DNA of 64,000 nt from Celeribacter baekdonensis. GTDB taxonomy: Bacteria > Pseudomonadota > Alphaproteobacteria > Rhodobacterales > Rhodobacteraceae. Below, in pieces: positions 1-26,058 of the stretch. The stretch spans positions 62,001 to 126,000 of the forward strand of contig NZ_FNBL01000011.1 of the NCBI RefSeq assembly GCF_900102315.1, given 5' to 3'. The translations under genes and the position numbers were made by a program. The notes below the pieces were generated by a model. It was not told the origin of the DNA. It worked only from the letters and a program-made list of their open reading frames with translations, and made no database searches. The stretch's first letter is position 1; the number at the start of each line of letters is the position of its first letter.

Positions 1-1147
1 TCCCGTCCGGGGCACGAGAGGGATCGAACACTGTCGGTTGACCAACGACAAGAAGCGGCGTGTCCGGCAAAAGCCCGGCGAGCGCCTGGGCATAGGTGCG
101 TGAGGCGGTGTCGATGCTGCGCCCGATATGGACATATGCGAAAGTGCCAAGCGCCTCTGCCGCCCATGGCACCGGCGCGTCTAAGGCAAGGTGGATCATC
201 ATTGTTCCGGGGGCGTGGCGGAATTTTTCGAGACCTTTGTCAAACCGCGCGTCCTGTGTGCCGCCGATGAGGCGCAACAGGTGTTTTGGGGCAAGACCTG
301 CCAAAATGGTTGAGGCTTCGACCTTTTCCCCATTCACGACAACGCCTGTGGCCCTGCCGTTTGTGTGCAGGATCTCCGTCACGTCGGCGTTGCACTCCAC
401 TGTGCCACCGTGCGCCTCGATCATGGCGACCAGCGCGCGGGTGGCGACATCAGCACCGCCCTTGCCAATCACCATCCCCATGGCCTGACCACCCATGGCT
501 TCGAGGTAAGGAAAAATCGCGCCTCCGGCAATGTCGGGGGCAAAATCAAGGTGCATGCCCCATGTCGAAAGCGCGGTGCGCAGGCGCGGGTCTTCAAAGC
601 TGTCTTCCAACCACGCGCGCGGCGAGCTCATCAGAAACTGAGCCACCTCAAGAGTTTTCGCCGTCCCCAGAGACCGCCATGTTTTCCAGATGAATTTGAG
701 CAGGGGCCAGCGTTGCATCGGGGTGCCAAGCAACCCACCGACCACACCGGCGCGGGCAGGAAACGCCGCCATCAGGTCGCGCCATGTCGCCTTGTCTGCG
801 TCGGAGGCAAAGGTGGCCAGTGTCTCGTCCACGTTGGTGGTCACGCCGACATAATCCCCCGGCTCCAACGCCTGTGCAAAGGGGCGCGAGATGGGGACAA
901 ATCCCATTCCGTGTCGCGCCATTTCCTCCCCGTGGCGGGCCATAAAGGCCGAGCCTGCGAACATGGACAGGTTCATCGCCGCGACATCGTGACGAAAGCC
1001 GGGGAGGGTCAACTCTTCGGTGCGCACCGCCCCACCGGGGGTTGGCGCGCGTTCGAAAACACGGACTTTTTTGCCTCTTGCGGCCAGATCGGCCGCTGCG
1101 ACAAGACCGTTGATCCCGGCACCGATGATGACGATAGGCGTGCTCAT
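1..1147 (-). CDS. FAD-dependent oxidoreductase, phytoene-desaturase-like (partial, C-terminus off window)
   Basis: The gene reads leftward and runs off the left edge; 382 codons are open from the ATG at 1147. The N-terminus (MSTPIVIIGAGINGLVAA) is a Rossmann FAD-binding site with GAGING at residues 9-14, followed by the acidic end of the second strand (VFERAPTPGG). It is a paralogue of the product at 5312-6877: both share the N-terminal pattern and a VGQPT..DPSRAP segment, which here lies just before the cut. By that comparison about 140 C-terminal residues are missing. It starts 3 bp after iorB, so it belongs to the same operon. The family catalyses flavin-dependent desaturation or amine/C-C oxidation; the substrate is unknown, but two paralogues flanking iorAB suggest successive oxidations of one compound. 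Confidence 0.85.
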   Translation of the reverse strand, partial: MSTPIVIIGAGINGLVAAADLAARGKKVRVFERAPTPGGAVRTEELTLPGFRHDVAAMNLSMFAGSAFMARHGEEMARHGMGFVPISRPFAQALEPGDYVGVTTNVDETLATFASDADKATWRDLMAAFPARAGVVGGLLGTPMQRWPLLKFIWKTWRSLGTAKTLEVAQFLMSSPRAWLEDSFEDPRLRTALSTWGMHLDFAPDIAGGAIFPYLEAMGGQAMGMVIGKGGADVATRALVAMIEAHGGTVECNADVTEILHTNGRATGVVVNGEKVEASTILAGLAPKHLLRLIGGTQDARFDKGLEKFRHAPGTMMIHLALDAPVPWAAEALGTFAYVHIGRSIDTASRTYAQALAGLLPDTPLLVVGQPTVFDPSRAPDG

Positions 1148-1150
1148 ACC

Positions 1151-2701
1151 TTACCCCGCAAAGCTTTTGACAGTGGCCAAGGCGCCGTCGAGTTTATCGC
1201 CTTTGACATCGTCAAGCGCCGCCACGCGCAGACGACGCATCCAATCGGCGGCATCGTCGCGGCCCTTTAAGAGATCAAGCGCGCCCATCACGCGGGCAAA
1301 TTTCGACAGGCCACGGGCATGGGTGTCGGAATAGCCCTTGATCAGGCGATAATTGGCCAGCACTTCGGAGGCGAGCGCCGGGTCCGTTTTGGCCACCTCA
1401 ATCGCGGTGTTGAACCATGCGGTGACATGCGCCATTTCACTTTCGTGACGTAGCAATGTGCGGCGGATTGGCCGCAGGGATGACACCACCCAGAGCATCA
1501 TAAACCCGCGCAAACTATCGGTGCGAATACGCCGCCCTTTGTCGAAATGCTTGGTGTAAAACGCTTCAATACCTTTGCGTCTTTGCAGCCATTTCCCCAT
1601 AGATTTGGGCAAGGTCGTGGTGAATTCTTCAAAACGCGGGTGAAAATATTCGGTCAGCATCAGGACCTGATCGTCTTTGACGACAACCTCGTCTTTGACC
1701 CGCTCAAACCGCGACGCCCGTGTTTTAATATCCGCAACCCGCAACAGGTCATCATAACACAAAGCGCGGGCGCAATATTTGGCGGCATTCACACTCAGAT
1801 CAAATGGTGCGGCATCAAGCGCGGCCATCTTTTCGACCATATCAAGATAGTCGGAACCATAGGCAACATCTTGGTAGTCCACGACTTTTTTCAAACCCAG
1901 AGCCGTCATGTCCCTGACCTCATCCGGCAGGGCCGCAACGCGGGCCTCAAGGGCGGCCCATTTCGCGGCCAGCTTTTGCGGGACATGCAAAACCGGCACG
2001 ACGGGCGCTGTCGCCTCTTCGGGGCGTGGCGCAGGTTTGGTGCCTTTTGCAATTTCGTAGGCGTCGCCAAACGCCCGCAAACTCGCCTCAACACCGCGGC
2101 CTGAGCCACGGATCACATCCTCAAAACTGTCACGAGGAAAGGGCAGGGCACCTGATCCCGCCAGCGCGCCAAGCAGGGAGGACGAAATCACCGACCCGGC
2201 TTTTTTCGCCACAGTTTCCATATCAAAGGCGACGACATGATCGGCGGCGATGCCCATGGCTTCGACCACGTCGGCGCCATCCACGCGGCCATCGCCGGGG
2301 TTGATTTTCTCCGACACGGCGGCGATGCGGTGGGTGGAGGTGATCAACGTGGTCCGGCCCGGCGTCACAAAGCCGCGCATGATCGCCCGCCCGCCTTCCA
2401 TCAACTCGGACGCGATGAGGATGTCGACATCCCCGATCGAGGGAGACAGGGAAAACACCGGCGCGCGGCCGGTGTCGCGGCACATTTCGACATAGTAAAT
2501 GGTCGCGCCTGTCCGCTGGGCCACGCCCGCAACCGAGGTGGATTGGGCGCGATAGCCATTGGCTTCGGCCACGGCGACGATCCAGTTGGTGAGCACGCCA
2601 CCGCCTTGACCGCCGACCGCGAGCGCCGCCAGTGTGATGACTTTCTCTCCGTCAGGGCCGGGGGACCGGCGGGCGACAATCGGATTTGCTTGTATAGTCA
2701 T
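1151..2701 (-). CDS. iorB: Indolepyruvate:ferredoxin oxidoreductase, beta subunit (long IorB type)
   Basis: 516 aa from the ATG at 2701, 11 bp after the iorA stop; an upstream in-frame extension lies inside iorA and is not used. The glycine-rich GGQGGG at residues 30-35 marks the gamma-type domain of 2-oxoacid:ferredoxin oxidoreductases, which occupies about residues 20-210. The remaining 300 residues match the extra C-terminal domain of bacterial long IorB proteins (DUF6537 type), whereas archaeal IorB is only about 200 aa. With IorA it should oxidatively decarboxylate an aryl-pyruvate such as indolepyruvate to the aryl-acetyl-CoA, reducing ferredoxin. That activity is known for the family; here the oxoacid is inferred from neighbouring indole-type genes. 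Confidence 0.9.
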   Translation of the reverse strand: MTIQANPIVARRSPGPDGEKVITLAALAVGGQGGGVLTNWIVAVAEANGYRAQSTSVAGVAQRTGATIYYVEMCRDTGRAPVFSLSPSIGDVDILIASELMEGGRAIMRGFVTPGRTTLITSTHRIAAVSEKINPGDGRVDGADVVEAMGIAADHVVAFDMETVAKKAGSVISSSLLGALAGSGALPFPRDSFEDVIRGSGRGVEASLRAFGDAYEIAKGTKPAPRPEEATAPVVPVLHVPQKLAAKWAALEARVAALPDEVRDMTALGLKKVVDYQDVAYGSDYLDMVEKMAALDAAPFDLSVNAAKYCARALCYDDLLRVADIKTRASRFERVKDEVVVKDDQVLMLTEYFHPRFEEFTTTLPKSMGKWLQRRKGIEAFYTKHFDKGRRIRTDSLRGFMMLWVVSSLRPIRRTLLRHESEMAHVTAWFNTAIEVAKTDPALASEVLANYRLIKGYSDTHARGLSKFARVMGALDLLKGRDDAADWMRRLRVAALDDVKGDKLDGALATVKSFAG

Positions 2702-2712
2702 GGGACGGTTCC

Positions 2713-4857
2713 TTAGGCAAAAGCCACGCGTTTCGCGTCGCGGCGGCTTTGCAGCCAAGAGATGATTTTTTGACTGCGGCGGGCCCGGCGTTTTTCGCCC
2801 GCGCTTGGGTTCGACACGATCTCGGCCTGAAAGAAGGAGGGGCAGAGCACGGCCGCATCCGCCACCTCACCGCAGTTGCCACAGCCGACACAGGTTTGAT
2901 CAATCGCGGCCACCGGATCATCGCGCAGGGGATCGCCGGTGTCCTTGACCGAGAGGGACGGACAGCCCGACAGGCGCATACAGGCGTGATCGCCGGTGCA
3001 AATATCCTCATCCACACCAAAGCGCGGGCGCACGACGCGTTTGCCATCTTTGGCCGCCTTTGCCAGTTCGGGTTTCACCCGGCGTTGTTTGTTGAGCATA
3101 CATTCCGAGGAGGCGACGATCACCTTCGGCCCCTCTTCCTCGGTGGTCAGCGCCTCTTTCAACGTGTCGCGCAGTTTGGTCACATCATAGGTGCGATCAA
3201 TCTGGCGGATCCATTTGACACCCATGCCTTTGCAGGCCTCAACGATGGAGTTTTGGGTCTGTTTGGTTTTGTTCGTGGCGCGCGAGGACAGGATGTCCTG
3301 ACCCCCTGTCGCCGCCGAGTAGAAATTGTCGACGATGACGATGACATTGTCGGATTTGTTGAACACGGCATTGCCGACCGAGCTGGTCAGGCCGTTGTGC
3401 CAAAATCCACCATCGCCGACGAAGGAAATCGAGCGACGGCCTTTTTTGTTTTCATTGTGAAAGGCGGCGGCAGAGGCGGGACCAAGGCCATAGCCCATCG
3501 TCGTCGCTCCCAGATCAAAGGGCGGCATGATGGAAAACAGGTGACAGCCGATGTCAGAGGAGATGTGATGTTCGCCAAGCTCTTCTTCGACCAATTTGGT
3601 GGCGGCAAAGATCGGGCGTTCCGGGCAGCCGGTGCAGAACCCCGGCGGGCGGGCAGGCAGGATTTTGGAGAGATCGGGGATTGCGATAGGGTCTTCGTTG
3701 GCGGCCAGTTTGGCCACCGGCAGCATCTCAGCCGCATAGTCGGACAGGAATGCGCCAAGGCCATCGACCATCACTTGGCCGGTGTACTCTCCGCCCATCG
3801 GCAACATGCCCTTGCCTTCGAGTTTGACCGACTTGCCCGCTTTGTAAAGCATATGTGCGATCTGTTGCTCGATGTAGTTGGGCTGACCTTCCTCAATGAT
3901 CAAAACCGCATCCTTGCCCTCGCAAAATGCCATGATTTGACTGTCAACGAGGGGATAGACGCAGTTGAGGACCAACATATCCATCTCGGTGTCGCCATAG
4001 AGATCGGCCAATCCCAGACGGTTGAGCGCCCGGATCACGGTATTATAGGTGCCGCCCTGAAGGATCAGGCCCACCTTGCTACCCGGTGTGCCGAACCGTT
4101 CGTTGATTGCACGATCCAGAACGAATTTTTGCGCCGCGGGCAGGCGTTTGGTGAGCTTTTCTTCTTCGTGCAGATAGGTCGCGGGCGGCAACACGATGCG
4201 GTCCAGTTTGCGCGCCGGGTTTTCGAGCGCATCAGAGACGGTCATCGGCGGGCGCTTGTTGTCACGCGCCTCGAAATGGCCGTGGACGTGACATGAGCGG
4301 ATGCCGACCTGCAACATCACGGGGGTGTTCGACACTTCGGACAGCTCAAACCCATCCCCGACCGCTTTGACAATCGCGGGCAGGTTGGGACGGGGGTCCA
4401 GCATCCAGACCTGAGATTTCATCGCGAACGCATAGGTGCGTTCCTGCATGATCGACGAGCCTTCGCCGTAATCTTCGCCCACGATGATCAATGCGCCGCC
4501 CGTGACCCCACCAGACGCAAGGTTGGACAGGGCGTCCGAGGCGACATTGGTGCCGACGACGGATTTATAAGTGACCGCGCCACGAATGGGATAATGGACC
4601 GAAGCCGCGAGCATGGCCGTGGCGGTGGCCTCGCTGGCGGAGGCCTCGAAATGCACTCCAAGCTCGCTGAGGATTTCTTCGGCATCCGCGAGCACATCCA
4701 TGAGGTGGGAAATCGGCGAGCCTTGATAGCCCCCGACATAGCCGACGCCGTTTTCCAAAAGCGCCTTGGTGATGGCCAGGATGCCCTCTCCGGTAAAGGT
4801 GTCGCCTTCACCTTGTTTGAGTTTTTGGACTTCCTTGGCAAATGATCTTTCGGCCAT
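2713..4857 (-). CDS. iorA: Indolepyruvate:ferredoxin oxidoreductase, alpha subunit
   Basis: 714 aa, the catalytic thiamin-diphosphate and iron-sulfur subunit. The N-terminal pyrimidine-binding domain includes GGYQGSPISH near residue 43. The TPP-binding domain has the GDGGFWHNG motif near residue 480. A C-terminal ferredoxin-like domain carries C620, C626 and C632-P, then C656-x2-C659-x2-C662 and C672-P, consistent with two [4Fe-4S] clusters; the first cluster has a wide CxxxxxC spacing often seen in fused IorA. It sits 11 bp upstream of iorB and 11 bp downstream of a MarR gene, so the three are co-transcribed. Oxygen-sensitive chemistry of this kind in a locus full of oxygenases is noteworthy. 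Oxoacid specificity cannot be read from sequence. Confidence 0.93.
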   Translation of the reverse strand: MAERSFAKEVQKLKQGEGDTFTGEGILAITKALLENGVGYVGGYQGSPISHLMDVLADAEEILSELGVHFEASASEATATAMLAASVHYPIRGAVTYKSVVGTNVASDALSNLASGGVTGGALIIVGEDYGEGSSIMQERTYAFAMKSQVWMLDPRPNLPAIVKAVGDGFELSEVSNTPVMLQVGIRSCHVHGHFEARDNKRPPMTVSDALENPARKLDRIVLPPATYLHEEEKLTKRLPAAQKFVLDRAINERFGTPGSKVGLILQGGTYNTVIRALNRLGLADLYGDTEMDMLVLNCVYPLVDSQIMAFCEGKDAVLIIEEGQPNYIEQQIAHMLYKAGKSVKLEGKGMLPMGGEYTGQVMVDGLGAFLSDYAAEMLPVAKLAANEDPIAIPDLSKILPARPPGFCTGCPERPIFAATKLVEEELGEHHISSDIGCHLFSIMPPFDLGATTMGYGLGPASAAAFHNENKKGRRSISFVGDGGFWHNGLTSSVGNAVFNKSDNVIVIVDNFYSAATGGQDILSSRATNKTKQTQNSIVEACKGMGVKWIRQIDRTYDVTKLRDTLKEALTTEEEGPKVIVASSECMLNKQRRVKPELAKAAKDGKRVVRPRFGVDEDICTGDHACMRLSGCPSLSVKDTGDPLRDDPVAAIDQTCVGCGNCGEVADAAVLCPSFFQAEIVSNPSAGEKRRARRSQKIISWLQSRRDAKRVAFA

Positions 4858-4868: not shown

Positions 4869-5315
4869 TTAAAAATCGTGATGGCGGATGTCATAGAACA
4901 CCCGCAAAAGCATCTTGTTGAGCTGCGCGCGTTCGTCTTGTGTCAGAGTGGCAAGCATGGTGTCGCGCATGCCAAGCATGGCTGGCCAAGCCGTTTCATA
5001 GGCGGTATGCCCGGTATCGGTGAGGCTGATTTTGCGCACACGGCTGTCGCCGTCTTGTCCTTCGCGACGGATCAGACCGGCCTTTTCCATTGTATCGAGT
5101 GTGCGCGAGAGGGTGGATTGTTTGATCACGGTCAGCACTGACAACTCGCCGATCGTGCAGGGGCCGCCGTCAAACAAAACGACGAGGGCGCGCATTTGAG
5201 CCACGGAGACGCCCACCTCTTTGAGCGTGGCTTCAACCCCTTTGTTGTAGCGCGCCATGATCCGGTTCATCAGATATGGTGTGAATTCTTCGAGATCTTC
5301 GGGACGGTCTATCAT
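4869..5315 (-). CDS. MarR-family transcriptional regulator
   Basis: 148 aa. The central winged helix runs from about residue 45 (CTIGELSVLTVIKQSTLSRT as recognition region) to the wing DGDSRVRKISLTDTG near residue 95, typical of ligand-responsive MarR dimers. The start overlaps the stop of the upstream FAD oxidoreductase by 4 bp (ATGA), and iorA follows after 11 bp, so the regulator is embedded inside the operon it probably controls. The palindrome at 7730-7745 upstream of the first gene of the operon is a candidate binding site. MarR proteins at catabolic loci are usually repressors released by a pathway substrate or CoA ester; the ligand here is unknown. Confidence 0.9.
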   Translation of the reverse strand: MIDRPEDLEEFTPYLMNRIMARYNKGVEATLKEVGVSVAQMRALVVLFDGGPCTIGELSVLTVIKQSTLSRTLDTMEKAGLIRREGQDGDSRVRKISLTDTGHTAYETAWPAMLGMRDTMLATLTQDERAQLNKMLLRVFYDIRHHDF

Positions 5316-6877
5316 GCGCCCAGCTCCTTGGCTGTCAAAAAGCCTGAGCCGCCGGAGAGGCCGGGCCCCGGATGGGTGGATGCGCCGATATGATAGAGGT
5401 TTTTGACGCCCGTGTCGTGGCGCAGAGTGTCAGCAAACGGGCGCCAGAGGAAAAACTGATCGAGGGCACAGGCACCGCCATAGGGATCGCCGCCAACAAG
5501 GTTCATGTTGTAGTTTTCGAGATCCGCCGGAGAGATCGCGCGGCGGGTGACAATCTGATCTTTGAACCCGTCAATATGGTGGCTGAGGATGGCCTCAACA
5601 CGGTCGGCATAGGCTTCGCGCAGCGCCTCTGTCCATTGTCCATCGGCGGGCACGGCGATCTCGCCGCGTGCATCGCCTTTGACGTTGCGCGGCGCTTCGG
5701 GCAGTTGCAGCCAGAGCACGGATTGACCCTCTGGGGCGCGGCTGGGATCAGCGGCGGTGGGTTGGCCGACGCAGATCGTTGGCACATCCGGCAACATCCC
5801 GCGTTCGGCTTCGTTGCCCGCTTTTGATACGGCATCAAGGCCGGGAGTGATGTGCAAAAGCTGAACAGCTTCAAGTCCGGGTGTGTTCCATGTCACAGGG
5901 CCGTTGAGCAGATAGTGAAGCTGGAAATTGCCTTTGCCATATGTGTATTTGCGCAGGTTTTCGGCGTGTTTGGGGGAGGGGGCGAGCGTGCCATAGAGTT
6001 GATGTGGCGTGACGGAAGCAAGCAGTTTGCCCGCCTTGATCGTCTCGCCGTTTGACAATTTAAGGCCTGTCGCTTTGCCGTTTGAAATCAAGATTTCAGA
6101 CACTTCGGCAGAGGTGCGCACGGTGCCGCCGTGTTCCTCGATGATCGCGATCAGCCCGCGCACCATATTGGCCGCGCCGCCTTTCACGATGGGCGCGCCT
6201 GCCGCCTCCAGGGCAAAGCCGATCACCTGACCCATTTGACCGGAAAACGCCGCCTCAGGACCAAGCCCCGCATGCAGGCACCACGGTGCCCAAAGCGCCC
6301 GCGTCAACTCATCTTCAAAAGAGGTTTCCAACCAGCCACGCATGGATTGCAACGCGCCGCCCATGGTGGCGGCAAGCCCATGCGGCTTGCGTTTCCAGGC
6401 TTCTTTGCCCAATAGCTTTGCTGTGGATTTCGACCAAGGATCGCCACCCATCAGGCCAAACAAAAGCGCGGCATCGGCGCCAAAGGCCGCAAGATCAGCA
6501 CCAAGCTGTGCACCATCGCCGCTGTGAATGGCATCAAAAGCGGCCATATTGACGGCACGGTCCATTTTATAGGTCAGCGCCCGGCCATCGGGCAAAAGCA
6601 CACCGGTTGGGGTGTCTGTGGCACAAAATTCAACCCCATGCCGTGCCAGATCAGCCCCGAGCGCGCCATGGGCCGCACCCGTCACCCAAAGCACGAATGT
6701 TGTGGCAAGGGGATCATATGTGACCCCCTCCGCCAAGGTTTCGGACCGCATACAGCCGCCGGCCACCGCTTCGCGTTCAAACATCGCGACACGTTTTCCC
6801 GATTTGGCCAACAGGGCTCCGGCGACCAAAGCGTTGATCCCGGTCCCGATGATGGCAATGTCTGTGGATGCGGTCAT
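5312..6877 (-). CDS. FAD-dependent oxidoreductase, phytoene-desaturase-like
   Basis: 521 aa, full length. N-terminal dinucleotide site GTGINALVAG at residues 11-20 followed by FEREAVAGG, and a C-terminal FAD/substrate segment with HPGPGLSGGSG near the end, the usual C-terminal signature of phytoene desaturase/NAD(P)-FAD oxidoreductases. It is paralogous to the partial gene at 1-1147. It lies 15 bp after the cyclase stop and overlaps the MarR start by 4 bp. No signal peptide is visible, so it is probably cytoplasmic. The family covers dehydrogenases and oxidases acting on hydrophobic or amine substrates; an indolic or side-chain substrate is inferred only from context. Confidence 0.88.
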   Translation of the reverse strand: MTASTDIAIIGTGINALVAGALLAKSGKRVAMFEREAVAGGCMRSETLAEGVTYDPLATTFVLWVTGAAHGALGADLARHGVEFCATDTPTGVLLPDGRALTYKMDRAVNMAAFDAIHSGDGAQLGADLAAFGADAALLFGLMGGDPWSKSTAKLLGKEAWKRKPHGLAATMGGALQSMRGWLETSFEDELTRALWAPWCLHAGLGPEAAFSGQMGQVIGFALEAAGAPIVKGGAANMVRGLIAIIEEHGGTVRTSAEVSEILISNGKATGLKLSNGETIKAGKLLASVTPHQLYGTLAPSPKHAENLRKYTYGKGNFQLHYLLNGPVTWNTPGLEAVQLLHITPGLDAVSKAGNEAERGMLPDVPTICVGQPTAADPSRAPEGQSVLWLQLPEAPRNVKGDARGEIAVPADGQWTEALREAYADRVEAILSHHIDGFKDQIVTRRAISPADLENYNMNLVGGDPYGGACALDQFFLWRPFADTLRHDTGVKNLYHIGASTHPGPGLSGGSGFLTAKELGA

Positions 6878-6892: not shown

Positions 6893-7687
6893 TCAAGCGG
6901 CGGGGATGAGGGCAAGCGCGCGGATCGGCGAGCCGGTGCCCTTGACGATCTTGAGCGGTGCGGTGACGAAGATCGCGCCTTTGGCGGGCAGTTCCTTCAG
7001 GTTGGTCAAAGAGGCAAGGCCATAGCGGTTGTGTTTGTGCAGCAGGTTGTGCGCCGGGAACGGGATTTCAAACCCACCTGCGGCCCCCGCGTCGGTGCCA
7101 ATGCATTGGGTGCCCCAGCCAAGCGCCTTTTTCTCTTCCATCAGATAGGTGATGAGCTCTGCCGTCGGGCCAGGCGTATGTGGGCCGTTTTCGTCGGCAT
7201 TGAGGTATTTATCCTCATCCGTGTTGTATTGATCCCAATCGGTGCGCATCAGCACCCATTCGCCTTCTTTGATCTCGCCGTGCTCGGCTTCCCACGCCTT
7301 CACATGCGCGACGGTCAAAAGGAAATCGGGATTTTCGGCGGCCTCTTTGGAGCAATCAATCACATTGGCCGGAGCGACGAAGTTTTGCGGATTGATGGTA
7401 TCGACGGAGCCGTCGGGAAAATCCTTGCCGGTGATCCAGTGGTGCGGTGCATCGTAATGGGTGCCGGAATGTTCGCCGAGTTTCAGCCAATTCCACGCCC
7501 AAAACGGACCGCGGTCACCGTATTCGGAGATTTTGTGAATCTCGATCTTGGGCGTGTCGTCGGCGAATTCAGGCGGCAGTTTCAACAGCGGCGTATCTGG
7601 GCCGAGCGGGGCGGTGCAATCAACGACTTTGATGGACCCGTTCAGCAGACCAGCAGCGACGTTTGCGAGTGTTTCTTGGGTGGACAT
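6893..7687 (-). CDS. Cyclase-family metal hydrolase, isatin-hydrolase-like
   Basis: 264 aa, first gene of the leftward ior operon. It has the metal-binding signature HSGTHYDAPHH with H73, H77 and D79 as predicted Mn/Zn ligands and H83 in the position of the catalytic histidine; the C-terminal FPAHNLLHKHNRYG segment is also typical. The family includes isatin hydrolase (isatin to isatinate), kynurenine formamidase and other amide or lactam ring openers. Length and motif positions agree with characterised isatin hydrolases as I remember them. Isatin would fit the nearby indole-oxidation and anthranilate-CoA genes, and isatinate is readily converted to anthranilate. Kynurenine formamidase is the main alternative. 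The upstream region holds a perfect 16-bp palindrome 43 bp before the start. Confidence 0.8.
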   Translation of the reverse strand: MSTQETLANVAAGLLNGSIKVVDCTAPLGPDTPLLKLPPEFADDTPKIEIHKISEYGDRGPFWAWNWLKLGEHSGTHYDAPHHWITGKDFPDGSVDTINPQNFVAPANVIDCSKEAAENPDFLLTVAHVKAWEAEHGEIKEGEWVLMRTDWDQYNTDEDKYLNADENGPHTPGPTAELITYLMEEKKALGWGTQCIGTDAGAAGGFEIPFPAHNLLHKHNRYGLASLTNLKELPAKGAIFVTAPLKIVKGTGSPIRALALIPAA

Positions 7688-17117: not shown

Positions 17118-17161
17118 TGCTGTCATCCTTTGACTGAGGGGGCTGATCTGTGTCGCCTCCA

Positions 17162-17418: not shown

Positions 17419-17507
17419 CAATAACAGAGGGCGCAGATTTGGCGGGCCGCCCATCTTTATACATACGGCGCATGCCCATTGCGACCACCCGACTGAAAGG
17501 AATTCCT

Positions 17508-19156: not shown

Positions 19157-19230
19157 CAGAACCCTACAGAGATCACATCCCTAAGACCGTGTGTTTTGGA
19201 CCTAAAAACACGCAACAGTGGAGAAAGATC

Positions 19231-19659
19231 ATGGACTTCAGCAAAGGTATCACCCCTTCGGGCGAGAGCTTTAAAAACCAAAAATGGACCATTTTGGGCG
19301 AGCCTTATTTGCCGCTGCATGTGTCGGACAGCTCGATGCTTATGCATGCGGAATTCAACGTCGACAGTTTCGTGCCCACCCATGTTCACGATACGCAGGA
19401 TGAAATTTTGCACATTCTCGAAGGTGAGATGGAGTTCGAAACCGAAGGTAAGGTGATCAAAGCCGGGGTTGGCGACACGGTGACTTTGCCGATGGGTATC
19501 CCGCATTCCCTACACAACCGCTCCGGCGCGTTGGCGCGGGCGTTGGTTGTCGTCTCCCCGGTCGCACGGATGTACGATTACATGGTCGCCATTGATGGCA
19601 TGAGTGATCCGGCCGAAGTCGTCCGCCTTGGCGCAGAGCATGAAATTCGGTTTGTCTGA
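19231..19659 (+). CDS. Cupin-domain protein, first gene of monooxygenase operon
   Basis: 142 aa from the ATG at 19231, with GGAGA 7-8 bp upstream. One cupin barrel: motif 1 is PTHVHDTQDEILHILEGEME (HxH...E) and motif 2 is MGIPHSLHN with the third histidine. The metal site is complete, so a small dioxygenase, isomerase or sensor function is possible. It heads the operon divergent from the AraC regulator and is separated by 153 bp, containing a hairpin, from the SnoaL-like gene. Its role in the pathway is not known. Confidence 0.85.
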   Translation: MDFSKGITPSGESFKNQKWTILGEPYLPLHVSDSSMLMHAEFNVDSFVPTHVHDTQDEILHILEGEMEFETEGKVIKAGVGDTVTLPMGIPHSLHNRSGALARALVVVSPVARMYDYMVAIDGMSDPAEVVRLGAEHEIRFV

Positions 19660-19759: not shown

Positions 19760-19812
19760 ATCAATCCGACGTGTCTCAACAGACCTCAAACACACAACAG
19801 GGAACATTAAAA

Positions 19813-20229
19813 ATGACTGTAAAATCTGTCATCGAAGCCTTTTGGCAAGGGCATAGCACTCAGGACATCGACGCCCTGAAAAACATCATGTCCGAAGACG
19901 TGACATGGACCGTGGTTGGCAAAACCTGCCCGATCGCAAAGACCTATTCTGGTTGGGACGGGTTCTTTGGCGAACTCCTCGGTGGCTTGGGCGAAGCCTT
20001 CAAACCCGGCACGCTGAACATGATCGTAAAAGGTCTTTATGCCGACGAGGACGCCGGCGTGGGCTTTTTGCATCTGGCTGAAACGGCGACCTTGCACAAT
20101 GGTCAGATCCTCGACGTTGAATTGGTCGATGTGTTCACCGTGCGCGACGGCAAGATTGTCGATGTGCGCGAAATCATGGACCTTGCCGCCGTCAACGGTG
20201 CCTTTGGCTTTGCGGAGGTGTCGGCATGA
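19813..20229 (+). CDS. SnoaL-like/NTF2-fold protein
   Basis: 138 aa. The pattern VIEAFWQGHSTQDIDALKNI followed by MSEDVTWTVVG and the C-terminal strands VELVDVFTVRDGKIVDVREI is the NTF2-like/SnoaL fold, used by cofactor-free cyclases, isomerases, hydrolases and some cofactor-independent oxygenases. It overlaps the start of the flavin monooxygenase by 4 bp, so the two are translationally coupled. Small proteins of uncertain function accompany the related monooxygenases in indole and indole-acetate clusters. Here it may act on the immediate oxygenation product. No catalytic assignment can be made from sequence. Confidence 0.82.
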   Translation: MTVKSVIEAFWQGHSTQDIDALKNIMSEDVTWTVVGKTCPIAKTYSGWDGFFGELLGGLGEAFKPGTLNMIVKGLYADEDAGVGFLHLAETATLHNGQILDVELVDVFTVRDGKIVDVREIMDLAAVNGAFGFAEVSA

Positions 20230-21413
20230 GCGCGTATAAAAAAGACATCACCCAAGAGATCATCGCCAAAGTTCACGCCATCGGCCCGATCCTGCGCGAC
20301 AATGCCGTCGAAACTGACAAAGGCCGTCGCGTCACCCAGGCCTCCCTTGATGCGCTCGAAACCACCGGCGTTTTTGGGATCAACTCGCTGGCGCAAAATG
20401 GCGGCTTTGAGGGCGGAGCCCGTATGCTGTTGGATGTCACCAGCACCATCGGCATGTATTGCCCAAGTTCCGCCTGGATTTCCGTGATTTCAAGCGTGTC
20501 TGCCCAGCTTGCCATGCGCTTCCCGGACACGGCGTGGAACCGCGTTTATGCGGGTGGAAAACCCGTCCGCATGGCCTCCGTGATCGTCAATTCCGGCAAC
20601 ACAGCCCGACGCGAGGGCGAAGGCTACCGGATCAACGGCGAATGGCCGTGGGGCTCCAACATCCTCAATTCTGAATGGGCCATCGGCGCATTGGATGTGT
20701 ATGAGGCTGAAGGCGCGGACCCAACGCCGGGCTATGTCCTGTTGCACAAGGACAGTTTCACGATCAAGGACACATGGTACAGCATCGGGATGCGTGGCAC
20801 CGGCAGCAACAATTTCATTGCCAAAGATATCTTGGTTCCAGCGGATCAAATCGCATCAGTAGGCACGATTCTTGGTCCAGAGTTTGAGATGTCGGGTGAG
20901 GCGCATTTCCTTCAGCGGTTGACGCCGGTTTCAATGTTCCCGACCGTGATCATTTCGGGCCCGCTTGGGGGGGCAAAGGCGGCCTTGGACTATGTGATTG
21001 CGGCGGCGGGCAAACGCCCCATCACCTACTCCAAATACCACCCGCAAAACACCTCTGGGGCTTTTGTTCAATCCATCGGGGCGGCCAAAGCCAAAATTGA
21101 CACGGCGGAAATGAGCCTTCAGGCCGCAGCCGATTTGATTGATGCGGCGGCCCTTGGCACCGAACCTTTGTCGATGGCGGATCGTGCCCGTGTGCGCAAT
21201 TACGGCGCACATGCCACGGCCAATCTGTGTGAGGTGATGAACGATCTCGCCACTTTGCATGGCACCGCGACCTTTGCCGAATTCAGCCCTCTGGGTCGAC
21301 TGTGGCGCGATGTGAACACCGGCGCGCGCCATGCCATTGCGGCCAGCCCGCTGTGCTATGAGATCGGCGGCGCGAGTCTTCTTGGCGTCTCCCCTCCGAC
21401 TCCGCTCGTCTGA
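20226..21413 (+). CDS. Acyl-CoA-dehydrogenase-fold flavin monooxygenase, IacA/Iif-type
   Basis: 395 aa. The acyl-CoA dehydrogenase/HpaB-like fold is recognisable: an N-terminal helical domain, NSEWAIGALDVYEA and WYSIGMRGTGSNNFIAKDIL strands, and a C-terminal RLWRDVNTGARHAI...PLCYEIGGASLLG helix region that ends naturally at TPLV. Relatives are the oxygenase components of two-component flavin systems, including indole-3-acetate monooxygenase IacA and the indole oxygenases of Iif/Ind clusters, rather than true dehydrogenases. The flavin reductase they require is encoded at 22863 in the same operon. The indolic substrate is inferred from this pairing and the neighbouring isatin/anthranilate-type genes. 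Confidence 0.85.
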   Translation: MSAYKKDITQEIIAKVHAIGPILRDNAVETDKGRRVTQASLDALETTGVFGINSLAQNGGFEGGARMLLDVTSTIGMYCPSSAWISVISSVSAQLAMRFPDTAWNRVYAGGKPVRMASVIVNSGNTARREGEGYRINGEWPWGSNILNSEWAIGALDVYEAEGADPTPGYVLLHKDSFTIKDTWYSIGMRGTGSNNFIAKDILVPADQIASVGTILGPEFEMSGEAHFLQRLTPVSMFPTVIISGPLGGAKAALDYVIAAAGKRPITYSKYHPQNTSGAFVQSIGAAKAKIDTAEMSLQAAADLIDAAALGTEPLSMADRARVRNYGAHATANLCEVMNDLATLHGTATFAEFSPLGRLWRDVNTGARHAIAASPLCYEIGGASLLGVSPPTPLV

Positions 21414-21423
21414 GGGCGGTTCC

Positions 21424-22851
21424 GTGTCTGATCCATTTGACCTTCACATGCAGGGCGGCGGGGCCGCCCTGCCACAAAAAGACGTGTCGCGTGCCGGGGC
21501 CAAAGGCACCACATGCGGCGGCGTCGAATGGTATTACGGCATCCGCTATGGGCGCTTGTCCAAACCGGACACACCCCGATCCCGCGTTGCGCCTGCAACA
21601 GGGCAGGTGCGCGTGCGTCATCTGACCGAGGTTCCGGTGTTTCCACAACTCCCCAGCCGCCTTGAGGCCCTCATGGGGCCGGGCATTGGCGAAAACCCGC
21701 AGTCGGATGAGGCGTTTTATCTCAACGTCTGGACCCCAAAAGGCGGCACTGACCTTCCGGTGATGGTGTTCCTGCATGGCGGCGCTTGGGTCAGTGGTGG
21801 CGGCGCGGCACGGTGGTATCGTGGCGCGGCTTTGGCGGCGGAGGGCATGGTGGTGGTGACGTTGAACTACCGGATTGGGCCCAATGGGCATCTCGAAGAG
21901 GATGCGCCTTACGCGGATCAAGACCCCACCGATCACCGCCCGATGGAGGACATTCTCACTGCATTGCAGTGGGTCAAAGACCATATTTGCGATTTTGGCG
22001 GCGATGCCAATCGGATCACTCTGGCCGGACAATCGGCGGGGGCATGGTATGCTTGGGCCTTGGCCGGGTGGTCAAAAGCCAGGGGCTTGTTTGATCAGCT
22101 CGCGCTTTTGAGCATTCCACAGATCAGCCCTTGGAGTGCGACGCACCGCAGCACCTTCACCCGCGACGCCGTTGCGCGCTGTAAGGAGATGCAGTGCCAA
22201 GGTGAACCGCAAGAGACGACTTTGTTGCGCGCAGGTGCCGAGGTGTTGTCGCGTCACACGTCGCCTCTTGGGGCGATGGCACCGATGTATTTGCCGGTTT
22301 GGCCCGTTGCGGCGGCGGAGACGCCTCTGCATGTCGCGGCGCTGTATGTGCGGGTGACAGACCATGAGATGTCCGTCTTTTTGCCCCAGCTTGCAGCGGG
22401 ATCAAAGCAGGATGTCGCACGCCTTTCGGCTCTGCGCGCCCAGTCCGATCCGCCAAATCTGTCGCACGCCTGTCCAAAGGGCTGGTCAGAGGACTGGTCA
22501 GAGGACTGGGCCGAAACCGTCGCCCGCGCCTCGTGGTTGAGCTTTGGTGCCTTTGCAGAGGCCATTGCCAAGGCGGCGGAGGAGTGTGGTCGCAAAGTGA
22601 TCCGACGACAGTTCGCAGCACGGAGCGACCTGCCCGGCGTCGGGGCGGCACATTGTTTCGATCTGCCATTCCAATTTGGAAACCCCGTAGATTGGCATGA
22701 CGCGCCGATGCTCGACGGCTGGTCCACTGAGGCCTTCGAGGCCCTCAGCCAAGAGATGCGCGCGGACTTGGCCGCCTTTGTTTTGAATGATCCTCAGCCG
22801 TTGAAACGCCGCCTTGGGATGCCGCTCCCGACCGAATGCCACATCCTTTGA
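21424..22851 (+). CDS. Type B carboxylesterase
   Basis: 475 aa from a GTG at 21424 preceded by GAGGG; the frame is open further upstream but overlaps the monooxygenase gene. The oxyanion-hole segment FLHGGAWVSGGG and the nucleophile elbow AGQSAGAWYAW with S204 identify an alpha/beta-hydrolase of the carboxylesterase B family. The first 40 residues are poorly conserved and show no signal peptide, so a cytoplasmic location is likely. It could release the acid from an ester or amide form of the growth substrate before oxygenation. It lies 10 bp after the monooxygenase stop and 11 bp before the flavin reductase. Confidence 0.87.
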   Translation: MSDPFDLHMQGGGAALPQKDVSRAGAKGTTCGGVEWYYGIRYGRLSKPDTPRSRVAPATGQVRVRHLTEVPVFPQLPSRLEALMGPGIGENPQSDEAFYLNVWTPKGGTDLPVMVFLHGGAWVSGGGAARWYRGAALAAEGMVVVTLNYRIGPNGHLEEDAPYADQDPTDHRPMEDILTALQWVKDHICDFGGDANRITLAGQSAGAWYAWALAGWSKARGLFDQLALLSIPQISPWSATHRSTFTRDAVARCKEMQCQGEPQETTLLRAGAEVLSRHTSPLGAMAPMYLPVWPVAAAETPLHVAALYVRVTDHEMSVFLPQLAAGSKQDVARLSALRAQSDPPNLSHACPKGWSEDWSEDWAETVARASWLSFGAFAEAIAKAAEECGRKVIRRQFAARSDLPGVGAAHCFDLPFQFGNPVDWHDAPMLDGWSTEAFEALSQEMRADLAAFVLNDPQPLKRRLGMPLPTECHIL

Positions 22852-22862
22852 GAGGAGTTCAG

Positions 22863-23399
22863 ATGACTGACATTTCAGATATGGCCGAGGCCTTTCGCAC
22901 CGCCTTTCGCAATCATCCGGCAGGGGTCGCGATTTTGACGGCGATGACACAGACGGGGCCCGTTGCGATGACGGTCAGTTCCCTGATTTCCGTCAGTGCC
23001 GTGCCGCCGGTGATTGCCTTTTCGCTGTCCAATCAGTCCGGCACCGCTGCCGCTCTTTTGACGGCACAGACCGTGGTGATCCATTTCCCACGCTACGAGG
23101 ATCTTGATCTGGCCAGTCTCTGCGCCAGGCCGGGAGAAGCCCGTTTTGGCGCAGACAGCGATTGGGAAACTCTGCCGACGGGGGAGCCACGCTATCGCCA
23201 AATTGGCACATGGTTTCGGGGCGAAATCCAAACGCGCCTGCCGCTTGAGGCGGCGACGCTTGTGACGGCACAGCTGCTTGAAGGTGTCTGTGCCGGCGCG
23301 ACGACATCCCAAGGCTCCCAAACGCTGGTTTATCTGGATCGGCGTTGGCGAGGCCTTGGGCAAGAAGACCGCAGGAACGGTCCATCACTCACCTCATAA
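22863..23399 (+). CDS. Flavin reductase, two-component monooxygenase partner
   Basis: 178 aa from the ATG at 22863, chosen for GAGGAG 6 bp upstream. It has the flavin_reductase (DIM6/NTAB) pattern: FRTAFRNHPAGVAILTAM, MTVSSLISVSAVPPVIAFSL and the C-terminal LVYLDRRWRGLG. Such proteins use NAD(P)H to make free FMNH2 or FADH2 for an oxygenase, here most likely the gene product at 20226 and perhaps the LLM monooxygenase at 10460. This matches the oxygenase-plus-reductase arrangement of IacA/IacG and Iif systems. Confidence 0.9.
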   Translation: MTDISDMAEAFRTAFRNHPAGVAILTAMTQTGPVAMTVSSLISVSAVPPVIAFSLSNQSGTAAALLTAQTVVIHFPRYEDLDLASLCARPGEARFGADSDWETLPTGEPRYRQIGTWFRGEIQTRLPLEAATLVTAQLLEGVCAGATTSQGSQTLVYLDRRWRGLGQEDRRNGPSLTS

Positions 23400-23451: not shown

Positions 23452-24321
23452 ATGAAACACTTCGCACACAGCCTCGTTCTTGGGGCACTCACAACCTGCG
23501 CCGCTTTGCCAGCATTGGCCGTTGACGTCGCGCCGGGCGATTACGCCATTCTGCCGTCTGGCACCACTGTCGGCCTGCTTTACCTCCAGCATTCCCGAGC
23601 GACGGAGTTGAACTTTGGCGGGGTTGATGTGCCCGCCTCTGAGGTCACCGCCAATGTCGCGGTTTTGCGGGGGTTGCACTACACTCAGATCGGCAATGAG
23701 CCGGTTTTGTTTCAAATGGTTTTGCCGATGGGTGGTTTTGAAACGGCTCAGATCGGCGGGGCGGCACAACCCACCTCCGAAGGCCTTGGAGACCTGACAT
23801 TCGGGGCCAGTTATTGGCCCGTCAAACCCTCCAACCCGGAAACCGGAACGACGGTTGGTGTCACGGCATTTTTGACCGCTCCAAGCGGGTCTTATGAGTT
23901 TGGCGAAGTCTCTTTGGGCGGCGGGACATGGGTGTTCACCCCACAAGTCGCGCTCATTCAGGGACTGGGCAATGGTGTCTATCTTGATGCCATCGCAGAC
24001 GTCGCCTTGAGCATGGATCATACCGAAAGCGGCGTGGAGGTGTCGCGCGATCCCGCCTCTCAGGTGCAGGTCGCCTTTCGCAAACAATTTGGCCAAACCA
24101 AATCGCTCTCTGTCGGCTATTCCGGCCAATTTGGCGGCGATATCAATTATGACGGTGTCTATTCGGGCCTTAAAACGCGCCGCGATCAGGTCCGCGTTTA
24201 TGCCAACAGCTTTTTAAGCCCGACCGTTCAAGTGCAGGGCATGTTGGCCAAGGACCTCAATGTGGAAGACGGGTTCAAAAACGACGTTGTCGCGGAAATC
24301 CGCTTTCTCAAACTGTTCTGA
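23452..24321 (+). CDS. Outer-membrane channel-like protein, Phenol_MetA_deg family
   Basis: 289 aa with a clear signal peptide (MKHFAHSLVLGALTTC...ALPALA, cleavage about residue 23). The mature part alternates short beta-strands, for example YAILPSGTTVGLLYLQHS and LGDLTFGASYWPV, and ends in an aromatic terminal strand (VVAEIRFLKLF), as expected of an outer-membrane beta-barrel. It resembles the MetA-pathway phenol degradation family (COG4313), which accompanies aromatic catabolic genes and is thought to help hydrophobic substrates cross the outer membrane. No inner-membrane transporter is encoded in this operon. Confidence 0.85.
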   Translation: MKHFAHSLVLGALTTCAALPALAVDVAPGDYAILPSGTTVGLLYLQHSRATELNFGGVDVPASEVTANVAVLRGLHYTQIGNEPVLFQMVLPMGGFETAQIGGAAQPTSEGLGDLTFGASYWPVKPSNPETGTTVGVTAFLTAPSGSYEFGEVSLGGGTWVFTPQVALIQGLGNGVYLDAIADVALSMDHTESGVEVSRDPASQVQVAFRKQFGQTKSLSVGYSGQFGGDINYDGVYSGLKTRRDQVRVYANSFLSPTVQVQGMLAKDLNVEDGFKNDVVAEIRFLKLF

Positions 24322-24355: not shown

Positions 24356-24396
24356 ACTGACGCGTTTTGCCGCCCTTACCCCAATGGAGACCAAGA

Positions 24397-26058
24397 ATGC
24401 TTGGACCTAGCGCACATGTAGACACGTTTTGCCGGGACAATCTTCCGGCACCCGAAGACCAACCCGACTATTTGCTAGACGCTTTCCCCTATCCCGACCA
24501 CATGAACGCGGCCTATGAGCTCACCGACCGGATGGTCGAAAAGGGCTTTGGCGATCGTGTCGCCTTGGTCGGTCAAGGCCGCAGTCGCACCTATGCGGAA
24601 CTGGCCCAGTGGAGCAGTCAAATCGCCCGTGCTCTTGTCGAAGACTATGGGATCAAACCGGGGCATCGCATTTTGATCCGCTCGGCCAATACGCCCGCGC
24701 TTGTGGCCTGTTGGCTTGGCGCGACCAAGGCGGGGGCGGTTGTGATCAACACCATGCCTATGATGCGCAAGAAAGAGTTGATGCAATATCTGGACAAGGC
24801 ACAGGTGCAATTGGCGCTGTGCGATCTGCGGATGTTGGATGAACTTGAGGCCTGTTTGGGCGATAGCGCAACTTTGGAACATGTTGTGTCATTTGACGGC
24901 ACGGCGGGGTTCAATGGGGCTCTTGATCACATGGCCGCCCGTCAATCGACGGAGCCCTTTTGGGTCAAAACCGGGCGCGATGATGTGGCGCTTTTGGGGT
25001 TTACCTCCGGGTCGACCGGCGTGCCCAAAGCGACGATGCATTTTCACCGAGACCTTTTGGTGATCGCGGATGCCTATGCCAAAGAGGTGCTCAATGTGCA
25101 GCCCGATGACATTTTCGTCGGATCGCCACCTTTGGCATTTACCTTTGGTCTTGGCGGTTTGGCGATCTTCCCGCTGCGCTTTGGGGCCTCTGCGGTCTTG
25201 CTTGAACAGGCGGGGCCGGCGCAGTTGATTGAGATCATCGAGCGGCATAAGGCCACAATCTGTTTTACCGCACCCACCGCCTATCGGGCCATGCTTTTGG
25301 CCATGGAAGAGGGGGCCGACCTGTCAAGTTTGCGCTGTGCAGTCTCTGCCGGAGAAACGTTGCCACCGCCGGTCTTTGAAGCCTGGGTCAATAAAACGGG
25401 CCGCGAAATCCTCGATGGGATTGGCGGAACGGAGTTGCTTCACATCTATATATCGAACCGATTTGGCTCGGCACAACCGGGCTCCACTGGCACACCGCTT
25501 ACGGGCTATATCGCAAAAATTGTCGATGATGAGATGAACGAAGTCCCGCGTGGCACGCCCGGTCATTTGGCCGTGAAAGGTCCGGTGGGCTGTCGTTACT
25601 TAGAGGATGCACGGCAGACGACGTTCGTGCGAGATGGGTGGAACCTCCCCGGCGATATTTTCACTCAAGACGAAGCCGGGGCCTTCCACTTTGCCTCGCG
25701 CTCGGATGATATGATTGTGTCGTCCGGGTACAACATCGCGGGTCCCGAAGTTGAATCCGCCTTGCTGGCCCACCCGGATGTTTTGGAATGCGGTGTGATC
25801 GGTGTCCCCGATGAGGCCCGCGGTGCGATCGTACAGGCGCATGTTGTGCTTCGGGATGGCGTGGCGGCCAATGAAAGCACCGCCATGGAATTACAGGAAT
25901 TCGTCAAGGCGACCGTTGCGCCCTATAAATATCCGCGTTCCGTGATTTTCACCACTGCGTTGCCGAAAACGGAAAGCGGCAAAATCCAACGCTTTCGGTT
26001 GAAACAAAGCGAGGATTGTGCGGGCGCATTCACTCCGAATGAGGATGCACCCGATTGA
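24397..26058 (+). CDS. Benzoate/2-aminobenzoate-CoA ligase family
   Basis: 553 aa ANL-superfamily ligase, the normal length for benzoate-CoA ligases. Motifs: the adenylate P-loop TSGSTGVPKATMH near residues 210-222, the GIGGTELLH motif near residue 345, the hinge/core SGYNIAGPEVE near residue 446, and the adenylation lysine in KTESGKIQR (K529). It activates an aromatic acid to its CoA thioester with ATP. Coupled with the fused 2-aminobenzoyl-CoA monooxygenase/reductase at 14835, anthranilate is the best substrate guess; benzoate or hydroxybenzoate remain possible. Last gene of the operon divergent from AraC. Confidence 0.9.
   Translation: MLGPSAHVDTFCRDNLPAPEDQPDYLLDAFPYPDHMNAAYELTDRMVEKGFGDRVALVGQGRSRTYAELAQWSSQIARALVEDYGIKPGHRILIRSANTPALVACWLGATKAGAVVINTMPMMRKKELMQYLDKAQVQLALCDLRMLDELEACLGDSATLEHVVSFDGTAGFNGALDHMAARQSTEPFWVKTGRDDVALLGFTSGSTGVPKATMHFHRDLLVIADAYAKEVLNVQPDDIFVGSPPLAFTFGLGGLAIFPLRFGASAVLLEQAGPAQLIEIIERHKATICFTAPTAYRAMLLAMEEGADLSSLRCAVSAGETLPPPVFEAWVNKTGREILDGIGGTELLHIYISNRFGSAQPGSTGTPLTGYIAKIVDDEMNEVPRGTPGHLAVKGPVGCRYLEDARQTTFVRDGWNLPGDIFTQDEAGAFHFASRSDDMIVSSGYNIAGPEVESALLAHPDVLECGVIGVPDEARGAIVQAHVVLRDGVAANESTAMELQEFVKATVAPYKYPRSVIFTTALPKTESGKIQRFRLKQSEDCAGAFTPNEDAPD

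Follow-up and report, generated by a model that had tools for sequence, protein, structure and literature searches.

A conserved isatin hydrolase–IorAB gene core in Celeribacter baekdonensis points to a candidate CoA-forming oxidoreductase for isatinate

Introduction

How bacteria process isatinate is a missing piece in their pathways for indole and the plant hormone auxin. Here we describe a gene cluster bearing on this gap in a 64,000-nucleotide stretch of Celeribacter baekdonensis DNA (hereafter the window; bases 62001-126000 of contig C26 in a 4.44-Mb genome). Among the genes in its first 26,058 bases are an isatin hydrolase, a 2-oxoacid:acceptor oxidoreductase of the type annotated as indolepyruvate oxidoreductase (IorAB), and a fused 2-aminobenzoyl-coenzyme A (CoA) monooxygenase/reductase (ACMR).

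Azoarcus evansii has a 2-aminobenzoyl-CoA pathway that shares with the window a fused monooxygenase/reductase and an anthranilate-type CoA ligase, and that differs from the route proposed here, in which isatinate would enter through IorAB without ATP-dependent ligation. Phenylglyoxylate oxidoreductase, a multi-subunit enzyme of anaerobic aromatic pathways, oxidatively decarboxylates an aryl 2-oxo acid to an aroyl-CoA; its likeness to the proposed IorAB is one of reaction type, not of sequence.

Other described systems are quoted, by PMC number, from the portions of their texts available to us. The 2-aminobenzoyl-CoA cluster is reported to be vital for anthranilate degradation in Cupriavidus (sp. 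SHE, indole), in a review that does not settle what part isatin plays in the breakdown of indole (PMC6221969). The Providencia rettgeri set GS-A to GS-E shares with the present locus a StyA-like monooxygenase, a flavin reductase, a short-chain dehydrogenase/reductase (SDR), a cyclase-family protein and an outer-membrane channel; whereas IorAB and ACMR come next in C. baekdonensis, the authors' proposal for Providencia is N-formylanthranilate, anthranilate and catechol (PMC9871250). Isatin hydrolase B of Labrenzia aggregata (4j0n, 4m8d) matches the window enzyme over its full length, has the same conserved metal site and has a close relative in the same gene context (locus L155); the available text of the isatin hydrolase paper mentions no operon, gene cluster, anthranil or oxidoreductase (PMC6117287).

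Dioxindole, isatin, isatinic acid and anthranilate have been detected in work on auxin degradation, and Conway et al. 2022 describe iorA and iorB as exclusive markers of iad-like auxin loci, with no iorAB role stated in the available text (PMC9613470). The iad-like loci of Variovorax, Bradyrhizobium and Achromobacter, where isatin and isatinic acid were detected, share iorA/iorB and MarR regulators with the window (PMC9613470), and their IadI is annotated as kynurenine formamidase (PMC12633357). The window differs in lacking iadDE (the Rieske oxygenase) and iadFGH and in having CrtI-like oxidoreductases, an Opp importer, an upstream IndA and ACMR. We rejected its assignment as an iad locus: the whole genome has a single PF00848 Rieske match, on contig C31, and none on C26. 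The same genome holds a second, iad-like cluster (contig C30:28001-64000; L036, L037) with an AMP ligase, a thiolase, a zinc-ribbon/SDR fusion, isatin hydrolase A, TRAP-type genes, IorAB, a thioesterase, two MarR genes and an Opp-type importer; its contig, too, is without the Rieske match.

Results

The isatin hydrolase, IorAB and ACMR genes of the window belong to a catabolic unit that begins about 9.5 kb left of it, in the left flank L004 (C26:42001-62000; window coordinate = L004 coordinate minus 20000). Its principal genes are as follows.

L004:10546-11187, minus strand: flavin reductase, upstream
L004:11039-12286, minus strand: IndA/StyA-like monooxygenase, upstream (PDB 7z4x, 618 bits)
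L004:12310-13218, minus strand: SDR, upstream
L004:13253-14260, plus strand: AraC regulator, upstream
L004:14266-19473, minus strand: five Opp-type importer genes, upstream
-397 to 1147 (crosses the window start), minus strand: FADox1, CrtI-like flavin adenine dinucleotide (FAD) oxidoreductase, 514 aa, 37% identical to FADox2
1151..2701, minus strand: IorB, 2-oxoacid oxidoreductase small-subunit type (NF006179, 665.6 bits, cut-off 348; ATG at 2701 from the translation)
2713..4857, minus strand: IorA, 2-oxoacid:acceptor oxidoreductase subunit (TIGR03336, IOR_alpha, 295.5 bits, below cut-off 650.9)
4869..5315, minus strand: MarR1 regulator (all models below cut-off; best PDB match 3cjn, 102 bits)
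5312..6877, minus strand: FADox2, CrtI-like FAD oxidoreductase (profile matches)
6893..7687, minus strand: isatin hydrolase, B type (PDB 4j0n, 424 bits)
12225..12695, minus strand: MarR2 of the 2-aminobenzoyl-CoA module (profile match; same position in Alloyangia)
12833..13225, minus strand: hotdog thioesterase 1 (PF03061)
13203..13631, minus strand: RidA-family enamine/imine deaminase (TIGR00004, 52 bits, below cut-off 106)
13658..14098, minus strand: hotdog thioesterase 2 (PF13279)
14095..14838, minus strand: SDR2 of the 2-aminobenzoyl-CoA module (profile match)
14835..17162, minus strand: ACMR, fused 2-aminobenzoyl-CoA (salicylyl-CoA) monooxygenase/reductase (NF006101, 1218 bits, cut-off 1078)
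24367..26058, plus strand: anthranilate/benzoate-type CoA ligase (best PDB match 4wv3, anthranilate-CoA ligase, 281 bits)

Isatin hydrolase, FADox2, MarR1, IorA, IorB, FADox1 and the importer lie in succession on the same strand, separated by -8 to 15 bases (11 between IorA and IorB), except for 129 bases before OppA and 67 before OppB. The core of isatin hydrolase, FAD oxidoreductase, MarR, IorA and IorB is conserved. The C-terminal half of ACMR is OYE-like; the CoA ligase scores 361.5 bits against TIGR02262, just under the cut-off of 375, and has an 81% relative in the Alloyangia cluster described below. Against solved MarR structures, MarR1 scores 102 bits (3cjn), 72 (7kym) and 41.5 (auxin MarR_73, 7kfo); the closest, 3cjn and 7kym, give no clear indication of its ligand.

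The isatin hydrolase is assigned by sequence, its hydrolytic activity being predicted. It matches IHA structures at 287-295 bits, and H73, H77, D79, H83, D199 and H213 are invariant across 13 aligned sequences. In LaIHA the metal ligands and the Asp-His dyad are His69, His73, Asp75, His79, Asp193 and His207, and isatinate is the product of the hydrolase; Labrenzia aggregata is the source of 4j0n (PMC6117287). From our reading of the offset, the two residue sets appear to correspond. The hydrolase of Labrenzia sp. DG1229 (L155) shares 90% identity with the 4j0n sequence and has FADox2, IorA, IorB, FADox1 and Opp as neighbors, so that a close relative of the characterized enzyme sits in a context like that of the window. 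Among the matches listed, the closest named isatin hydrolases are those of Pacificibacter, Pseudooceanicola, Alloyangia, Thalassovita and Tritonibacter (80-89% identity).

Chemically, isatinate is the 2-oxo acid 2-aminophenylglyoxylate, and members of the IorAB enzyme class turn a 2-oxo acid and CoA into an acyl-CoA, CO2 and a reduced acceptor. With isatinate as substrate this chemistry would yield 2-aminobenzoyl-CoA, the substrate of the ACMR encoded in the cluster. We consider it probable that the IorAB homologues linked to isatin hydrolase, whether in clusters for indole or in auxin iad loci, are isatinate:acceptor oxidoreductases (CoA-acylating). The name indolepyruvate oxidoreductase is probably misleading for the IorAB of this cluster: IorA falls short of the IOR_alpha equivalog model, while IorB passes the threshold of its beta-subunit family, NF006179 being a subfamily model and not a function-level one.

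IorA and isatin hydrolase were strongly linked across genomes. Among 248 genomes of the family, isatin hydrolase occurred in 50 at ≥45% identity (of 52 matching genomes, G004 and G017, at 36-38%, being left out) and IorA in 52 at ≥60% (of 59 matching). IorA was present in 50/50 isatin-hydrolase genomes but in 2/198 others (one-sided Fisher p 1.5e-50, without correction for phylogeny). ACMR, found in 86/248 genomes at E <= 1e-150, was present in 46/50 isatin-hydrolase genomes versus 40/198 others. These searches scored the best few candidates per genome, up to 4 for ACMR and IorA and up to 7 for the rare-block monooxygenase described below. IorA and isatin hydrolase lie ≤3 kb apart on the same strand in 36 of the 50 genomes, distances being measured between matches and not gene ends. 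The named loci comprise the best 80 of at least 577 confirmed, matches below 38% identity not being counted; 61 have both flanks, and in 59 of these IorA lies within 10 kb of isatin hydrolase, the remaining two genomes carrying IorA elsewhere.

The association extends across the phylum. Isatin hydrolase was found at E <= 1e-100 in 25 of 398 genomes (of 44 matching, the other 19 at 1e-45 to 1e-30), IorA at ≥60% in 25 (of 29 matching), and both in 23, with up to 6 or 2 candidates scored per genome, absence meaning absence among those. The exceptions are G563 and G477, with the hydrolase but without IorA, and G501 and G266, with IorA but without a strong hydrolase match. In G585, G137, G201 and G227 the matches to IorA and isatin hydrolase are separated by 7-16 bases. 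The family draw, the phylum draw and the named loci partly overlap (L106 and G040, for example, are seemingly the same contig, judging by length).

Weaker IorA matches (50-55% identity) showed no tie to isatin hydrolase (4/50 versus 7/198, p 0.16). In a tree of 42 IorA sequences, taken from 118 gathered rows without the IorA of L200 and L208, six weaker-clade rows split from the other 36 with SH-aLRT support of 100; 3 of those 36 (L081, L082, L207) come from loci without isatin hydrolase. Six stretches of the same family, L068-L073, carry a distinct IorAB clade, adjoined by a hotdog protein in 5/6 and with no isatin hydrolase or ACMR match.

The arrangement of the two genes varies: FADox2 and MarR may lie between them, they may be in close contact, IorA may come first, or they may be on opposite strands. 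In 109 loci, a set in which some places were fetched twice and the bin "other between" (32) is mixed, the hydrolase comes first on the same strand in 93, IorA comes first in 3, and the strands are opposite in 13. Such variation suggests repeated functional coupling rather than a single inherited gene order. On plasmid NZ_CP022192 of Alloyangia pacifica, the core, the 2-aminobenzoyl-CoA module, the IndA/SDR/reductase set and the CoA ligase occur in one stretch. Chance assembly of the gene combination was rejected on the strength of the family co-occurrence, the neighborhood counts at the 61 loci and this Alloyangia stretch.

IorAB also adjoins ACMR directly. In G534 (L203) IorA, IorB, a hotdog gene and ACMR are consecutive, and in G466 (L200) the same genes stand together; comparison of these fetched stretches showed no relative of the window ligase in either. 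Both genomes carry isatin hydrolase on another contig, in an IndA/SDR/FADox cluster (L202, L199). In a ligase search of 12 genomes, 4 of them searched again at a looser limit, the genomes G534, G585 and G612, each scored 100% complete, had isatin hydrolase, IorAB and ACMR but no close ligase, the best relatives of the window ligase being 26-34% identical. G501 and G266, which lack a strong isatin hydrolase match, both carry ACMR.

On two Deinococcus plasmids the isatin hydrolase gene overlaps the gene of another thiamine diphosphate (ThDP) enzyme by 4 bases (L192:9007-11426, L213:8007-10420). In D. psychrotolerans the row reads ACMR, SDR, MarR, enoyl-CoA hydratase, acyl-CoA dehydrogenase, AMP ligase, isatin hydrolase, ThDP enzyme, RidA. 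In Deinococcus sp. KNUC1210, the ThDP protein scores below the cut-offs of the many ThDP models that it matches. Judged by its position, this enzyme may take the place of IorAB and is a possible isatinate decarboxylase.

The upper part of the pathway would run from indole to isatin. The StyA-like indole monooxygenase, reductase and SDR set lies outside the window at L004:10546-13218 on the minus strand, and the structure matched by the monooxygenase, 7z4x, is presumably VpIndA1 of Variovorax; the database listing says flavoprotein subunit only. In Azospirillum thermophilum, genes for an SDR, IndA, a reductase, a channel, a FAD oxidoreductase and isatin hydrolase stand in a row behind a divergent AraC gene, and the FAD oxidoreductase, between IndA and isatin hydrolase, is 58% identical to FADox2. 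This row supports an indole-to-isatin route with the FAD oxidoreductase as an oxidation step. IndA, SDR, reductase, FADox and isatin hydrolase are also found together in L193, L199 and L202.

In the route that we infer, IndA and its flavin reductase would epoxidize indole; the SDR and a CrtI-like FAD oxidoreductase would carry the diol or dioxindole to isatin, with FADox2 for the dioxindole-to-isatin step; and isatin hydrolase would open the ring to give isatinate. IorAB would then decarboxylate isatinate oxidatively with CoA to 2-aminobenzoyl-CoA and CO2, passing electrons to ferredoxin or another acceptor. ACMR would dearomatize 2-aminobenzoyl-CoA, and RidA, SDR2 and the thioesterases would act afterwards. 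The CoA ligase would provide a second entry, for free anthranilate, which the rare monooxygenase/esterase block described below may supply.

The remaining genes of the island are as follows.

8250..8681, plus strand: cupin (stretch tested; start codon not settled; PF07883)
8745..9587, plus strand: FAH-family hydrolase (NF053535, 422 bits, below cut-off 500)
9584..10393, plus strand: SDR1 (profile match)
10460..11548, minus strand: LLM-class flavin monooxygenase, SfnG/RutA-like (models below cut-offs)
11676..12209, plus strand: winged-helix regulator adjoining the LLM gene (PF13463)
17439..17927, plus strand: hotdog thioesterase 3 (PF13279)
18004..19005, minus strand: AraC regulator, AndR-like (NF041686, 176 bits, below cut-off 350)
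19225..19659, plus strand: cupin of the rare block (PF07883; 54% relative in Shinella L191)
19771..20229, plus strand: SnoaL-like protein of the rare block (PF12680; 65% in Shinella L191)
20226..21413, plus strand: acyl-CoA-dehydrogenase-fold flavin monooxygenase of the rare block (best PDB match XiaF, 213 bits)
21331..22851, plus strand: carboxylesterase-family hydrolase of the rare block (weak NCBIfam esterase matches, below cut-offs)
22836..23399, plus strand: flavin reductase of the rare block (models below cut-offs)
23452..24321, plus strand: outer-membrane channel (PF13557, 83 bits)

An earlier note, made from the DNA sequence alone, had read a 26-kb composite pathway for an indolic compound via isatin and anthraniloyl-CoA. 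The gene classes it named in 1-26058 (reductase, SDRs, isatin-hydrolase-like cyclase, CoA ligase, fused monooxygenase/reductase, IorAB and channel) are present as intact open reading frames, as judged from the list of these frames with profile and PDB sequence matches, and its four local regulators are those at 4869-5315 (MarR, minus strand), 11676-12209 (winged helix, plus), 12225-12695 (MarR, minus) and 18004-19005 (AraC, minus). Left unlisted there were the two CrtI-like FAD oxidoreductases, the LLM monooxygenase, two cupins, the FAH protein, three hotdog thioesterases, RidA, SnoaL and the carboxylesterase. The 26-kb extent was too short, the unit starting some 9.5 kb further left with the importer and the IndA set.

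Several of these genes are uncommon at isatin hydrolase loci. The LLM monooxygenase occurs in 10/80 named loci (two of them only 40-45% identical), the winged-helix regulator in 8/80, and cupin, FAH and SDR1 together in 3/61 fully flanked loci; FADox1 occurs in 46/61. In 2-kb steps, G+C dips to 0.52-0.54 at window 10001-12000 and 16001-20000; it is 0.57-0.60 in the steps that separate the two dips and 0.60 past them. Directly behind the island, at window 26200-30166, come genes of thiamine biosynthesis (ThiC-like and neighbors, read from open reading frames).

Between hotdog thioesterase 3 and the CoA ligase (18.0-24.3 kb) lies a rare block of AraC, cupin, SnoaL, monooxygenase, esterase, reductase and channel genes. 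At E <= 1e-40 the 248 family genomes yielded, for its monooxygenase, only itself and one 29% protein; a 62% relative occurs in Shinella NZ_CP069303 (L191), which also keeps the cupin, SnoaL and esterase, beside a gentisate-dioxygenase-like/FAH/nitrilase/isomerase set. Among plasmid records at E <= 1e-30, the carboxylesterase matched in Shinella only. The Shinella stretch showed no relative of isatin hydrolase, and the close-relative stretches L088, L091, L092, L097 (10-kb flanks) and L196 (20-kb flanks) showed no rare block. IacA enzymes have the acyl-CoA-dehydrogenase fold. The Iif monooxygenases are StyA-like group E enzymes (PMC13101512), and the Iif part of the earlier IacA/Iif-type label does not fit the window monooxygenase, whose fold is that of acyl-CoA dehydrogenases. 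An Iif origin and a place in the conserved core were both rejected, given the XiaF match, the rarity in the family and the absence from core loci. The rare block may be a separate entry module; an anthranilate ester as its substrate is a guess.

Genes of isomerase/racemase-like, FAH, gentisate-dioxygenase-like and nitrilase type stand in a row at L036:15182-19058 and L203:850-11269, in the latter after IorA-IorB-hotdog-ACMR. Their types suggest ring cleavage of 5-hydroxyanthranilate with release of ammonia from maleamate.

Discussion

The backbone of isatin and anthraniloyl-CoA that the earlier note proposed is well supported, and its gene combination is not a chance one; rather than as a single unique composite, the locus is better understood as a conserved core (importer, FAD oxidoreductases, isatin hydrolase, MarR and IorAB, joined in some relatives by the 2-aminobenzoyl-CoA module and the IndA/SDR/reductase set) with a rare block. 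A likeness to ind and iif clusters also holds in part, as an IndA-type monooxygenase lies just outside the window while the window monooxygenase is of another type. IorAB, to which no role had been given, is the most informative part. The locus seems to serve the catabolism of indole or a closely related compound, and the route from indole to 2-aminobenzoyl-CoA as a whole is, on balance, a probable explanation of it and the best one we have.

Several observations weigh against this route. In G563, isatin hydrolase stands together with ligase and ACMR but IorA is missing at E <= 1e-80; in G477 the hydrolase is present while IorA, ACMR and a close ligase are absent; and the plasmid records of Azospirillum and Labrenzia THAF187b, searched by themselves, hold isatin hydrolase and no IorA. 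Conversely, IorA occurs without a strong isatin hydrolase match in the family genomes G155 and G229, as in G501 and G266. The ligase (≥48% identity) is found in 7/10 tested IorAB genomes (G000, G239, G215, G458, G466, G558, G615), so that its lack is not the rule. IndA lies within 10 kb in only 5/61 fully flanked core loci; indole is thus perhaps not the general substrate of the Opp/FADox1 core. The co-occurrence figures take no account of phylogeny (the 248 family genomes carry 248 genus labels) and come from partly overlapping samples. The substrate of IorAB could also be a different 2-oxo acid from this route. The profile model that identifies ACMR bears the name salicylyl-CoA 5-hydroxylase, and an amino rather than a hydroxy substrate is indicated by context only: the RidA-like protein, isatin hydrolase and the anthranilate-type ligase.

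The findings in Variovorax cut both ways. According to a 2025 preprint, iadC-K2, without iorAB, is enough to produce anthranilate, which speaks against the IorAB step; C8H7NO3 and C7H7NO pile up strongly only in Variovorax overexpressing iadC-K2 in a locus-deletion background (PMC12633357). Isatinic acid has the formula C8H7NO3, and the deletion took out iadA, which lies outside iadC-K2 (PMC9613470); the accumulation is consistent with a loss of IorAB. This inference is ours and not the preprint authors', who explain C8H7NO3 as an intermediate in overexpressing strains; overexpression alone could suffice (PMC12633357). In the literature searched, in part and mainly as open texts, we found no published assignment of isatinate conversion to IorAB or another 2-oxo acid oxidoreductase; a search aimed at isatinate decarboxylase or oxidoreductase found nothing, and one on Roseobacter 2-aminobenzoyl-CoA work nothing relevant.

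Among other explanations, the pathway may in truth begin with the rare block, its substrate being an ester of anthranilate or another substituted aniline that the carboxylesterase cleaves, with the isatin part an unrelated neighbor sharing the lower pathway. The block sits directly before the CoA ligase, and the gene set beside it in Shinella L191 is found also in L203 and in the C. baekdonensis genome. Its absence from the stretches of close relatives, and that of isatin hydrolase from the Shinella stretch, make this account unlikely, although it is compatible with a role for IorAB in isatinate conversion.

Another alternative is that a different enzyme, or a purely chemical reaction, turns isatinate into free anthranilate, the ligase then making anthraniloyl-CoA while IorAB only reduces ferredoxin or handles a side product. 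The ligase is present in the window, in Alloyangia and in 8/12 genomes tested; it occurs in G563, which has no IorA, and in D. psychrotolerans beside the ThDP enzyme; and Variovorax makes anthranilate from iadC-K2 (PMC12633357). The genomes G534, G585 and G612, with ACMR and IorAB but no close ligase, speak against this alternative. A ligase relative lies within 10 kb in 1/61 fully flanked loci versus 59/61 for IorA, a comparison biased against the ligase, which in the window and in Alloyangia is more than 10 kb from isatin hydrolase. We regard this alternative as very unlikely.

Slightly less likely still is that IorAB is true to its name and converts indole-3-pyruvate from tryptophan to indoleacetyl-CoA, feeding an auxin-type route that ends at isatin and anthranilate: the annotated names of IorA and IorB, iorAB as markers of auxin iad loci (PMC9613470) and the second IorAB in the iad-like cluster of the same genome fit this idea, but IorA scores far under the IOR_alpha cut-off and its match lies 7-16 bases from that of isatin hydrolase in four genomes, it accompanies ACMR and a thioesterase in L200 and L203, where no relative of the searched iadFGH genes occurs, no aminotransferase is among the genes named in window 1-26058, and a different ThDP enzyme takes the IorAB place in Deinococcus.

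If IorAB does act on isatinate, it would provide the missing step from isatin to anthraniloyl-CoA across Alphaproteobacteria and other Pseudomonadota, save the ATP of the ligase and explain the presence of iorAB as an iad-locus marker. It would also join isatin chemistry to the 2-aminobenzoyl-CoA route and bring a new, testable meaning to a clade annotated as indolepyruvate oxidoreductase. The oxidative, CoA-forming step would show how marine and root bacteria may draw energy from indolic signals.

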